A stretch of 64,000 nucleotides of DNA, from positions 45,241 through 109,240 of the forward strand of contig NZ_AXAR01000005.1 in NCBI RefSeq assembly GCF_000472905.1. Reading direction: 5' to 3'. The position numbers and the translations under genes were made by a program. Under the pieces are notes generated by a model. That model ran no database searches. It worked only from the letters and a program-made list of their open reading frames with translations, and had not been told where the DNA came from. This DNA is from Alicyclobacillus pomorum DSM 14955. Lineage in GTDB: Bacteria > Bacillota > Bacilli > Alicyclobacillales > Alicyclobacillaceae. Shown piece after piece: positions 3,765 through 38,417 of this stretch (within the stretch, counting starts at the first letter, position 1; each line of letters begins with the position of its first letter).

Positions 3765-4778
3765 ATGAAAGGAGTCATTCTCTGCGCAGGAAGAGGTACT
3801 CGCTTGCAACCTTTTTCCTTTTCTCTTCCGAAAACGTTGCTGCCCGTGGCGAATCAACCAGTCATTGATTATTGCATCGAGAAATTCGTCAACGCGGACA
3901 TTCGCGAAATTGGCGTTGTTCTCAACCCGGGGCAAAGAGATGTCGCAGACTGTCTGTCGAAGTACACCGAACTCGACATTCAGTTGTTTTTTCAAAAGCA
4001 GCCACGCGGTATCGCCGATGCCATCAAAATGGCGCGTTCATTCGTAGGCGCTGATTCGTTTCTTGTGCTCCTTGGTGACAACCTGGTGGAGGAACCGCTG
4101 GTGACGACTCTAGACGCATTTTCTGGTCATTCCAGCGCCATTCTGTTGGCCCACGTGGAGAATCCATCCGACTACGGCGTTGCAAGTTTGGATCAAGACC
4201 GGGTGGTCAAGGTGGAGGAAAAGCCGAAGAAACCGCAGAGCAACCTCGCCATTGTCGGCATCTACGCTTTTACGCCGGACATCTTTGAGGCGATTGACGA
4301 CATTCGACCGTCGGCACGTGGCGAATACGAGATTACCGAGGCCATCCAGTGGTTGATAGACCACGGACAGGGCGTTTCCTACGCAGTCACATCAAATCCA
4401 TTTTTTGACGTGGGAACGGTGGAGCGGTGGTTGGAAGCGAACCGTTGGCTCCTTCGTGAACGGTTTGGACACGACGTGTTCGTCGGCAACAATACGCATT
4501 TGGAAAATTGCACGCTCAAGGGCCCGCTGGTGATAGGGGACAACTGCGTGATGAAGGATACGACGTTAGGCCCATATGTGTCCATTCAGGACGGCAGTAC
4601 GCTCGTCAATTGTTCGTTGACCAACAGTATCTGTCTGTCTCGCTCTACGCTGCAAAACATCAAGTTGCCAATTGTGTCAAGCATATTCGGGAGAGACTCC
4701 AGGTTCGAACTGGATCCCGGGATAGATACAGAGTTGCGCTGCATCGTCAGTGACAAGTCGCGGGTAGCACCGCACTAG
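3765..4778 (+). CDS. sugar-1-phosphate nucleotidyltransferase with left-handed beta-helix tail
   Basis: This is a 337-residue nucleotidyltransferase. The first strand-loop MKGVILCAGRGTRLQPFS has the G-x-G-T-R-x2-P signature, followed by PKTLLPVANQPVI and the metal-binding LLGDN. The C-terminal third (from about residue 240) is hexapeptide-like, with repeated I/L-x4-G spacing. This is the RmlA-long/GlmU-like layout and implies a trimer. It starts 9 bp after the dehydrogenase stop with AAAGGAG-type spacing, so it is operonic. It supplies an NDP-sugar to the cluster. Whether that is dTDP-glucose, UDP-glucose or another sugar cannot be told. Confidence 0.85.
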   Translation: MKGVILCAGRGTRLQPFSFSLPKTLLPVANQPVIDYCIEKFVNADIREIGVVLNPGQRDVADCLSKYTELDIQLFFQKQPRGIADAIKMARSFVGADSFLVLLGDNLVEEPLVTTLDAFSGHSSAILLAHVENPSDYGVASLDQDRVVKVEEKPKKPQSNLAIVGIYAFTPDIFEAIDDIRPSARGEYEITEAIQWLIDHGQGVSYAVTSNPFFDVGTVERWLEANRWLLRERFGHDVFVGNNTHLENCTLKGPLVIGDNCVMKDTTLGPYVSIQDGSTLVNCSLTNSICLSRSTLQNIKLPIVSSIFGRDSRFELDPGIDTELRCIVSDKSRVAPH

Positions 4779-24904: not shown

Positions 24905-25594
24905 ATGCGGTGGTGGACATCCGTGACCCGGGTGTTATACGTGGTGGTGATGGCATTTTGGGCTCTGGGATTCAATGCAAAGCCGGTGCAGGCGAGTGTA
25001 TTGCAGGGGGGGCCTTATGAGATTCGGATTGACACGAATCATCCCGAACTCAAGTTGTATGCACGGGGGCATCTCTACCGCACGTACCCTGTGGCGCTCG
25101 GAAAGCTGGATACGCAAACCCCTGTCGGCTCCTGGCGGATTGTTGACAAACAGAAGGAATGGGGTTCTGGGTTCGGTTCTCGTTGGCTAGGTCTCAATGT
25201 GCCTTGGGGGACCTACGGGATTCACGGCACCAACCGTCCACGGTCCATCGGCCAGTACGCCAGCCATGGATGCATTCGGATGTACAACGCCGACGTGGAA
25301 CAGTTGTACGACCTGGTGCCGTTCGGAACGCCGGTCATCATCACTGGGGATCCTCTGAAGCACCAGAGAACGCTGGAGTTCGGGGACATCGGCGCAGATG
25401 TTCAATGGGTACAGCAGCGGCTCCGACACGCCGGATACTTTCGCGGGGATTGTAACGGCCGGTTTGAGCAAAGCACGCAGTTTGCGCTCCTGTTCTACCA
25501 GTTGTCGCGCGGATTGCCGATGGATGGAGAGGTGGGGCCGGACGATTACCAAGCACTCGGATTGGCTTCCAGCGAGAAACACTATCATTTGTAA
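24905..25594 (+). CDS. L,D-transpeptidase (YkuD) with C-terminal peptidoglycan-binding domain
   Basis: This is a 229-residue exported enzyme. A signal peptide of about 35 residues (basic RWWTS then a hydrophobic core ending KPVQAS) precedes the YkuD domain. The catalytic motif is HGTNRP...ASHGCIRM, with the nucleophilic Cys in SHGCIR near residue 128. Residues 160-225 form a PG_binding_1 domain (GDIGADVQWVQQRLRHAGYF). It forms 3-3 crosslinks or attaches stems in peptidoglycan, often in spore cortex or stationary phase. ATG 24905 follows GGGAGGCG; upstream in-frame codons would bury the signal peptide. Confidence 0.9.
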   Translation: MRWWTSVTRVLYVVVMAFWALGFNAKPVQASVLQGGPYEIRIDTNHPELKLYARGHLYRTYPVALGKLDTQTPVGSWRIVDKQKEWGSGFGSRWLGLNVPWGTYGIHGTNRPRSIGQYASHGCIRMYNADVEQLYDLVPFGTPVIITGDPLKHQRTLEFGDIGADVQWVQQRLRHAGYFRGDCNGRFEQSTQFALLFYQLSRGLPMDGEVGPDDYQALGLASSEKHYHL

Positions 25595-25613
25595 ATCGCT
25601 CATCGTAAAAAAC

Positions 25614-25678
25614 TTCACTCGGCCTTTGTACACCCTTCACATAACCTTCACGGGATATATACACAAGCCTCGTATACT
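25614..25678 (+). promoter_or_regulatory. Pho-box array and promoter of the secreted phosphoesterase
   Basis: Four hexamers TTCACT, TTTGTA, TTCACA and TTCACG begin at 25614, 25625, 25636 and 25647, exactly 11 bp apart. This is the direct-repeat geometry of PhoP binding sites. The -10 TATACT follows at 25673-25678, 20 bp after the last unit, with no good -35, as expected for an activator-dependent promoter. The target encodes a secreted phosphoesterase, which fits phosphate-starvation control. Confidence 0.65.
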
Positions 25679-25724
25679 CGGATTGCGAGAATCAAGAATC
25701 CGAAGGATACGGAGGGGACTATTG

Positions 25725-27365
25725 ATGAATCGACGGTTTCACAAGCCGATGGCTGTGTTGGCCAGTGTGGCAGGACTCGGATCAGTCATTGCTGCAGGCG
25801 TGCCGGTATGGGCTTCTGCGAAGCCATTTTCCAGCAGTCACAAGACGGTCGTCGTTGCACCGAACTCGCCAGACTCGAAGACGACGACGCCGATTAAACA
25901 CCTGGTCGTCATTTTCCAGGAGAACGTCTCGTTTGACCACTACTTTGGAACGTATCCGAAAGCGGCCAATCCTGCCGGCGAGCCGAAGTTCACTGCGGCT
26001 CCGAACACCCCAAGCGTCAATGGGCTGAACGGACCGTTGCTGACCAACAATCCCAATGGAGTCAATCCCCAACGGCTCGACCGTTCGCAGGCCGTCACGG
26101 CGGATATGGATCACGGATACACGGACGAGCAAAAAGCGTATGACGGTGGACTGGTCGACCAGTTTGTCAAGGAAGGCGGCCGCGGGCAGAGTCTCGTGAT
26201 GGATTACTACGACGGCAACACGGTCACTGCCATGTGGAACTACGCGCAACACGGCGCTTTGAACGACAACTCATTTGGCACCGTATTTGGTCCGTCCACC
26301 CCTGGTGCGCTCAACCTGATCTCTGGACAGACGCATGGAGCGTTGATGTACTCCGACAACGTCGACAAGAATGGTACGTTGATTCCCAATGCGTCCGTGT
26401 CGGGCGAAGTAGGCAACGGGACTGTCTACGGAGATCCAGACCCCTACTACGACAAGACCTCCAAAGGCAAGACCGTGGCGATGACGGGCACCAATGTTGG
26501 CGACCTGCTCAACAAGAAGGGGATCACGTGGGGCTGGTTCGAAGGCGGCTTCCACAATGCTTCGGAGCAACACAAGAACATCGCGGGCGGCGCGTCGACC
26601 GACTACATTCCGCACCACGAACCCTTCCAATACTACAAGTCGACGGCAAACCCAGAACACCTTCCGCCATCCTCGGCGAAGGCCATTGGCCACACAGATC
26701 AAGCCAACCACCAGTACGATTTGACCGACTTCTGGACGGCTGCAGACAGTGGCAACTTGCCCGCCGTGAGTTTCCTGAAGGCCCCGGCTTACCAGGATGG
26801 GCATGCTGGTTATTCCGATCCGCTCGACGAGCAGACCTTCCTGGTCAACACCATAAACCATCTGCAACAGCTGCCCACGTGGAGCAGCACAGCTGTGGTC
26901 ATCTGCTACGACGACTCGGACGGCTGGTATGACCACGTCATGCCACCGATTGTAAATCCCTCGAACGACCCGAACGCGGATGCGCTCGATGGTCAAGGGA
27001 AGGCAGGCACGCCGAAGTCTGGCGCGTATTTGGATAGGTTGGGATATGGTCCGCGCTTGCCGCTGCTCGTCATATCGCCGTATGCTAAGAAGAACTACGT
27101 GGACAGCACGCTGACCGACCAATCTTCCGTGCTGCGCTTCATTGAGGACAATTGGAACCTCGGCCGAATCGGAGACCAATCGTTTGATGCCATCGCCGGT
27201 ACGCTCGACAACATGTTTGATTTCTCACAGAAACCAGATACCAAGCCGCTGTTCCTGAACCCATCCACGGGTGAACCGGAAAGCAAGAAGGACGCAGAGG
27301 CACAGGTAGCGTCGTATTTGAAGGCCCTGTACGCGGACGCAGGGGTACCGCTTCCAAAGCACTGA
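25725..27365 (+). CDS. secreted alkaline phosphatase-superfamily phosphoesterase (phospholipase C/acid phosphatase type)
   Basis: This is a 546-residue exported enzyme of the PF04185 phosphoesterase family. A signal peptide of about 35 residues (MNRRFHKPMAVLASVAGL, ending near VWASA) is followed by the family start IKHLVVIFQENVSFDHYFGTYP, where Glu-Asn are metal ligands. The C-terminal metal block is YDDSDGWYDHVMPP, then LGYGPRLPLLVISPYAKKNYVD and SVLRFIEDNWNL. ATG 25725 follows ACGGAGGGG. It would release phosphate from phospholipids or phosphomonoesters outside the cell. The Pho-box array upstream supports a phosphate-scavenging role. Confidence 0.9.
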   Translation: MNRRFHKPMAVLASVAGLGSVIAAGVPVWASAKPFSSSHKTVVVAPNSPDSKTTTPIKHLVVIFQENVSFDHYFGTYPKAANPAGEPKFTAAPNTPSVNGLNGPLLTNNPNGVNPQRLDRSQAVTADMDHGYTDEQKAYDGGLVDQFVKEGGRGQSLVMDYYDGNTVTAMWNYAQHGALNDNSFGTVFGPSTPGALNLISGQTHGALMYSDNVDKNGTLIPNASVSGEVGNGTVYGDPDPYYDKTSKGKTVAMTGTNVGDLLNKKGITWGWFEGGFHNASEQHKNIAGGASTDYIPHHEPFQYYKSTANPEHLPPSSAKAIGHTDQANHQYDLTDFWTAADSGNLPAVSFLKAPAYQDGHAGYSDPLDEQTFLVNTINHLQQLPTWSSTAVVICYDDSDGWYDHVMPPIVNPSNDPNADALDGQGKAGTPKSGAYLDRLGYGPRLPLLVISPYAKKNYVDSTLTDQSSVLRFIEDNWNLGRIGDQSFDAIAGTLDNMFDFSQKPDTKPLFLNPSTGEPESKKDAEAQVASYLKALYADAGVPLPKH

Positions 27366-37464: not shown

Positions 37465-37685
37465 CGGCCGTGGATAAACCTTCTGGACGTGTTGCGTGTG
37501 CGAGGACGAACGCGGAAGGTTGTGCTGGGCCCTCCACATTTCCTTCACACACAGTCCATCCCGAGTCCACAGTCTATTGTTACAGTAGGAATGTGATAAC
37601 ATAGGTACATGCTCTTCCACACTGGCCAGCGTTGACCATGTCGTGACAAGAGTATGAATCTGATTGATTCGAGAGGGGTACAGTT

Positions 37686-38417
37686 TTGGGAGACACGGAA
37701 AAAGGGAAGTCTGGCAATTTGACGACAAAACAAGACGTGGCAGATGCAGTGAAGCGCCCCGCCCAGGTGTGGTCCTGGCTGCTTGGCGCGGTCGGAGGTG
37801 CTGTCATTGTGGGGGCCGTTTGGGCAACCGTTGCACATGTGCAGTCGAAGCCTGTTGTGATTGCGAAAGTTGGAAACAACACGATTGATCAGGACGCCTT
37901 TTACAGCAAATTGGAGGCCAACTCCGGATTGCAAATGTTGGAACAGATGATTACGACGCAATTGATCAAGGACGGCGCGGCAAAGTACCATATTACGGCG
38001 ACGCAGGACGACATCAACAAAGCCACGCAACAGTTTGAATCCCAGTATGGGGTGAGCAGCCCGGATCAGCTCAATGTGATGCTGGCACAGTACCACATGA
38101 CGATGAGCGATTTTCAAGACATCATGAAGACGCAAGTGCTCGAGCAGAAACTCGCTGTCAAGGATGTCAAAGTGACCGATAAGGACATTCAGGACTTCTA
38201 CAACGCGCACAAGGCGAACTACACCAAGCCTGGTTCGAAGACGCCTCAGCCGCTGAGTGCCGTGCGCAACCAGGTGATAAACGATTACAAACAATCGAAG
38301 GCCGTTCCGTCAACTCAGCTGATAGCCAACCTCGCCAAGGAAGACCCCATCACGATTCTCGATCCGAAATACACCAGCATCAAAACGATGTTAGAAAGTC
38401 CTGCTTCAGCGCAGTAA
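37686..38417 (+). CDS. membrane-anchored SurA/PrsA N-terminal-domain protein without PPIase
   Basis: This is a 243-residue protein. After about 30 charged residues comes one membrane helix (WLLGAVGGAVIVGAVWATVA). A SurA_N/PrsA-type chaperone domain follows, with AKVGNNTIDQDAFYSKLEA and MLEQMITTQLIKDGAAKYHITATQDDINKA. The parvulin isomerase domain expected next in PrsA is missing: residues after NAHKANYTKPG run straight into the C-terminal helix. It could assist folding of exported proteins at the outer membrane face of the cytoplasmic membrane. TTG 37686 follows AGAGGGG. It is monocistronic. Confidence 0.75.
   Translation: MGDTEKGKSGNLTTKQDVADAVKRPAQVWSWLLGAVGGAVIVGAVWATVAHVQSKPVVIAKVGNNTIDQDAFYSKLEANSGLQMLEQMITTQLIKDGAAKYHITATQDDINKATQQFESQYGVSSPDQLNVMLAQYHMTMSDFQDIMKTQVLEQKLAVKDVKVTDKDIQDFYNAHKANYTKPGSKTPQPLSAVRNQVINDYKQSKAVPSTQLIANLAKEDPITILDPKYTSIKTMLESPASAQ

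Follow-up and report, generated by a model that had tools for sequence, protein, structure and literature searches.

Known Pho-Box Systems and the Present Locus

Phosphorylated PhoB or PhoP occupies tandem 11-nt Pho-box units in a head-to-tail arrangement, by which RNA polymerase is recruited, and the typical members of the regulon are phosphatases and Pst (PMC4415409). The boxes of Bacillus subtilis PhoP and Escherichia coli PhoB (PMC4415409) resemble the promoter described here, which precedes a phosphoesterase gene of Alicyclobacillus pomorum DSM 14955, as they have head-to-tail 11-bp units, a poor -35 and an array placed just upstream of the -10. Phosphate-related targets are common to both, and a two-component regulator is encoded with the pst genes, as is probably the case in the present genome. 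The differences lie in the consensus, about TTYAC(A/G), in the five successive units and in the last unit being 9 bp before the -10; moreover, the regulator of the present promoter is a predicted one. In the literature collection searched, none of the papers dealt with PhoP control in Alicyclobacillus.

As judged from its sequence, the promoter is very probably activated by PhoP~P without a -35 hexamer and induced by phosphate limitation, its array being the predicted operator of a PhoB-family regulator. It would be an added case of this well-known control network. The window mentioned below is the whole 64-kb stretch of DNA that was analysed.

Array and Promoter Architecture

The array is located in the 130-bp gap between the L,D-transpeptidase gene, ending at 25594, and the phosphoesterase ATG at 25725. 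The features are as follows, in window coordinates:

25614..25619, + strand: Pho unit 1, TTCACT, weak, by direct sequence reading
25625..25630, + strand: Pho unit 2, TTTGTA, weak, 3.7 bits
25636..25641, + strand: Pho unit 3, TTCACA, 8.3 bits
25647..25652, + strand: Pho unit 4, TTCACG, 6.8 bits
25658..25663, + strand: Pho unit 5, TATACA, 6.9 bits, promoter-proximal, 9 bp before the -10
25650..25655, + strand: ACGGGA at the would-be -35 position, 17-bp spacer, 2/6 matches to TTGACA, by inspection
25673..25678, + strand: -10 element TATACT, beginning 15 bp after the first base of Pho unit 5
25711..25717, + strand: Shine-Dalgarno-like GGAGGGG preceding the ATG, by inspection
25725..27365, + strand: target gene for an AcpA-type acid phosphatase, a PF04185 phosphoesterase of 546 aa whose N-terminal stretch (MNRRFHKPMAVLASVAGLGSVIAAGVPVWASA) resembles a signal peptide

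Direct reading of the sequence gives five 6-bp units on the + strand with a spacing of exactly 11 bp. The preliminary description had listed the first four, and their sequences and spacing are correct, but its count was too low, as the in-register fifth unit was overlooked; this unit occupies the position of the promoter-proximal unit conserved among the orthologues. The TATACT placed there 20 bp after the fourth unit is found at that position, and the -35 is indeed poor, the region being covered by the array and having no acceptable hexamer. Regarding the -10 register, it is the same as at the pst promoters and in the orthologues. Several features expected of a Pho box are seen here, namely more than the minimum of two direct 11-bp repeats in the same orientation, a unit shared with pst and a -35 replaced at a fixed distance from the -10.

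The frame of the phosphoesterase remains open upstream to 25398, across the promoter (25398-27365, + strand, 655 aa), so that automatic gene calling could choose too early a start and hide the operator. The start at ATG 25725 is supported by an orthologue with 74% identity, whose alignment begins at residue 1 of that reading.

The Encoded Phosphoesterase

The 546-aa product matches PF04185 at 293.7 bits, against a gathering score of 23, and its closest solved relative is the acid phosphatase PDB 2d1g (phmmer E = 6.5e-144, residues 47-517). The motifs FQEN.SFD.YFG, GPSTPGALNL and YDDSDG..DHV, which hold the nucleophile and the metal ligands, are retained in this alignment to 2d1g, an AcpA-type enzyme within PF04185. 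The curated NCBIfam cut-offs were missed both for the Burkholderia-type acid phosphatase TIGR03397 (182.3 vs 362.75 bits) and for the phosphocholine phospholipase C (164 vs 580 bits). The protein had been described as a secreted phosphoesterase: the enzyme family is confirmed as a PF04185 phosphoesterase/acid phosphatase, while the secretion side comes from a signal-peptide-like stretch at the N-terminus, judged by eye, with which the protein is probably exported. A secreted acid phosphatase suits phosphate scavenging.

Related Arrays in the Same Genome

Five other arrays of this genome (pstB, pstS, pit, GDPD and a propeller-phosphoesterase gene) supplied 20 units for a weight matrix, with the phosphoesterase site excluded. 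With this matrix from other loci, the phosphoesterase array scores 22.1 for units 1-4, 25.6 for units 2-5 and 29.0 for all five, being rank 1 across the window, where the best independent array elsewhere reaches 16.5 and other spacings at most 15.3. For a consensus scan, lenient and with a pattern adapted to the site, the expectation by chance is 0.07 matches in the window when up to three mismatches are allowed, and the site has zero mismatches.

The pst locus, on contig C33, is organized as pstB-phoU-regulator, then pstS-pstC-pstA, a DUF5317 gene and a PAS histidine kinase, and its PstB, PstS, PstC and PstA are above the curated NCBIfam cut-offs. The arrays behind the matrix are located as follows:

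C33:51973: before pstB (pstB-phoU-phoP), four units, 11-bp spacing
C33:54423: before pstS (pstS-pstC-pstA), four units, 11-bp spacing
C4:8727: before the PhoU_div-pit pair, five units
C31:189949: before the GDPD gene
C35:10499, reverse strand: before the propeller-PF04185 fusion gene

The preliminary description had proposed looking for the same repeats at pst and phoPR, and they are present before both pst operons, including the one that carries the putative phoP gene, in the same -10 register, an outcome that speaks for the PhoP reading. The pstS and pstB promoters equal the phosphoesterase promoter in unit, period, strand and -10 register; unlike it, their units are TTTACA-rich and higher-scoring (29.0 and 32.5, both arrays being in the training set).

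Places across the whole genome were counted by pattern searches, with reversed patterns as controls. Three units followed after 9 bp by a -10 occur, with at most one mismatch, at only five places in 3.4 Mb: the phosphoesterase promoter, the pstB operon, the pstS operon, the propeller-phosphoesterase gene and a single member of a small-RNA-like family. At up to two mismatches there are 14 places, against 4 for the reversed control pattern. As a negative control, among the 123 genes in the stretches taken from this genome, no 11-bp array is seen beyond the six loci for which the stretches were chosen. Since three further PF04185 genes of the genome have no array, the array is not simply tied to this protein family.

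Some other elements were also observed. The propeller gene (L033:5053-7416, - strand, on C35), with its array at L033:7501-7538 (- strand), encodes a beta-propeller/lactonase-like part fused to the PF04185 domain; a PF04185 gene of similar length on C24 has no array. At L034:8060-8097 (- strand), equivalent to C32:46059-46096, TTTACA, TTTAAC, TTGACA and TTTACT stand in register before a HAD-type hydrolase gene, which may be another Pho member, although its -10 is less clear. In the window, positions 37533-37571 (+ strand) hold TCCACA, TTCACA, TCCATC and TCCACA, spaced by 11 bp. TACAGT stands in the same -10 register, and the gene that follows (about 37686-38417) resembles a PrsA-like foldase; this second-best array of the window (16.5) falls between the 95th and 99th percentile of the shuffle maxima. 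A lysine riboswitch is located at L036:10834-11010 (- strand), directly upstream of a permease-like gene. The arrays at C2:103794, C24:153117, C32:203577 and C9:22768, with no clear phosphate gene behind them, were set aside as probable noise.

Conservation Among Relatives

Orthologues of the phosphoesterase were found in 28 of the 101 genomes searched, giving 30 loci, to which two genomes contribute two copies each and among which some pairs are closely related; an array was counted when it had four units, at least 12 bits and a spacing of 11. An upstream array at 11 bp is present in 22 of the 30 loci, compared to 0 or 1 at spacings 7-10 and 12-16, and none at 11 bp lies inside the genes or on the opposite strand in the same 30 loci. 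In the other 8 loci a clear array is lacking, and no orthologue of the phosphoesterase occurs in the one further genome of the genus. Of the 24 orthologue loci scoring at least 11 bits, 15 have their best -10 match exactly 15 bp downstream of the first base of the last unit, as in the window. Among named genomes, this arrangement precedes orthologues in Alicyclobacillus suci, herbarius, fastidiosus and sendaiensis, Ectobacillus, Aneurinibacillus, Sporolactobacillus putidus, Neobacillus and Ktedonobacteraceae bins. Because the flanks differ between loci, the arrays have been kept and not merely inherited in long identical DNA. As a positive control, the pstS array is seen in 27 of 30 loci from relatives, mostly in the same -10 register.

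The promoter had been called a confident new PhoP target on the grounds that gene function and site geometry agree. This agreement is found, with a PF04185 phosphatase behind an array in the pst-like -10 register, and the wording is fair for a predicted site; the array matches the genome's own pst promoters and is kept in orthologues.

Regulator and Proposed Mode of Action

Following the reading as a Pho promoter, the phosphorylated regulator encoded between phoU and pstS would bind the five head-to-tail 11-bp units as tandem copies when phosphate is limiting. The bound PhoP~P would cover the missing -35 region and recruit RNA polymerase to the -10 at 25673-25678, resulting in the production of a probably exported AcpA-type acid phosphatase/phosphoesterase, which may free phosphate from organic phosphate outside the cell.

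The protein encoded between phoU and pstS is a PhoB-family response regulator, and the PAS histidine kinase gene follows pstA. The PhoB equivalog gives the regulator 238 bits (cut-off 296), and the YycF/WalR and MtrA models give it nearly as much; since it is below the curated PhoB cut-off, as the kinase is below that of PhoR, the name PhoP is given from the operon context.

WalR/YycF-type regulators likewise recognise 6-bp units 11 bp apart, and the array could be read by another OmpR/PhoB-family regulator of this kind, in which case the gene would answer another signal, such as envelope stress. This is unlikely, though several observations are in line with it: the genome encodes at least ten other OmpR-family regulators that match the pst-linked one, which is itself about equally close to the PhoB and YycF models; the upstream neighbour is an L,D-transpeptidase, a cell-wall gene; and a second, somewhat different set of 11-bp arrays, CCACA-rich, precedes a small-RNA family. 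However, the array agrees in unit sequence, strand and -10 register with the pstB and pstS promoters of this genome and with the pstS promoters of relatives, and the target is a phosphatase whose orthologues retain the array. The WalR (YycF) box has the consensus TGTWAH-N5-TGTWAH, and by eye none of the five units (0/5) fits TGTWAH on the other strand, where the reverse complements AGTGAA, TACAAA, TGTGAA, CGTGAA and TGTATA all break it; the array was thus rejected as a WalR box.

It is very improbable that PhoP binds here but represses, or binds with no regulatory effect, even if other bacteria are known to have Pho boxes for which no phosphate regulation is apparent (PMC4415409), because the array takes the place of the -35 and leaves 9 bp to the -10, just as at the pst promoters, which is the usual position of an activator, and a scavenging phosphatase suits activation. 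Finally, despite degenerate hexamers and two weak units among the five, a chance run of TTCAC-like words before the gene is a negligible explanation, ruled out by the spacing controls and by the shuffles, as none of 200 dinucleotide shuffles of the window attained the observed four- or five-unit scores (top four-unit score 20.6), and by arrays that are conserved independently in orthologues whose flanks diverge.

A Small-RNA-like Family with 11-bp Arrays

The motif search also uncovered a multicopy family of short small-RNA-like transcription units, some of them in tandem. In each, a CCACA-rich array with an 11-bp period and a -10 resembling TGTAYACT, in the Pho register, are followed by a hairpin body of 110-140 nt and a Rho-independent terminator, the promoters having CCACA/TTCACA arrays with 11-bp spacing. 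The units are located as follows:

C33: 43311-43427; 2334-2472 (- strand); 4021-4136
Other contigs: C3:44003-44373; C35:107650-108076 (- strand); C15:3277-3615; C2:19390-19502 (- strand)
Further loci: L161, L162, L163, L172, L174, L176

A covariance model matches 16 places in the genome and 5 in the genus's other genome, while the matches in further genera of the family are weaker; some of the weakest matches may be spurious, and the copy number in the genome is about 13-16. None of the matches lies inside the window, and Rfam has no match to the family in the loci scanned. The hairpins are supported by covariation: 98.9% of the cells in two helices are paired among 19 core sequences, and these show 60 two-sided changes, whereas shuffles give 20.3 +/- 4.9 and slid controls no more than 8. 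In the genus of the window the copies are preceded by arrays, as are some, not all, copies in two other genera. Tentatively, the Pho-type operator architecture might also drive this structured multicopy family in the Alicyclobacillus-related lineage, a possibility that we regard as somewhat doubtful.

Implications for Phosphate Scavenging

The analysis provides a well-supported definition of the Pho box, as TTYACR-N5 units with the last one 9 bp before the -10, for an acidophile-rich and little-studied lineage. It predicts that an AcpA-type acid phosphatase is part of phosphate scavenging in the Alicyclobacillus-related lineage, and the motif gives access to the rest of the regulon, namely pit, GDPD, the propeller-phosphoesterase and possibly the small-RNA family. 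If the latter is true, the Pho regulon of the Alicyclobacillus-related group would include undescribed paralogous phosphate-starvation small RNAs.
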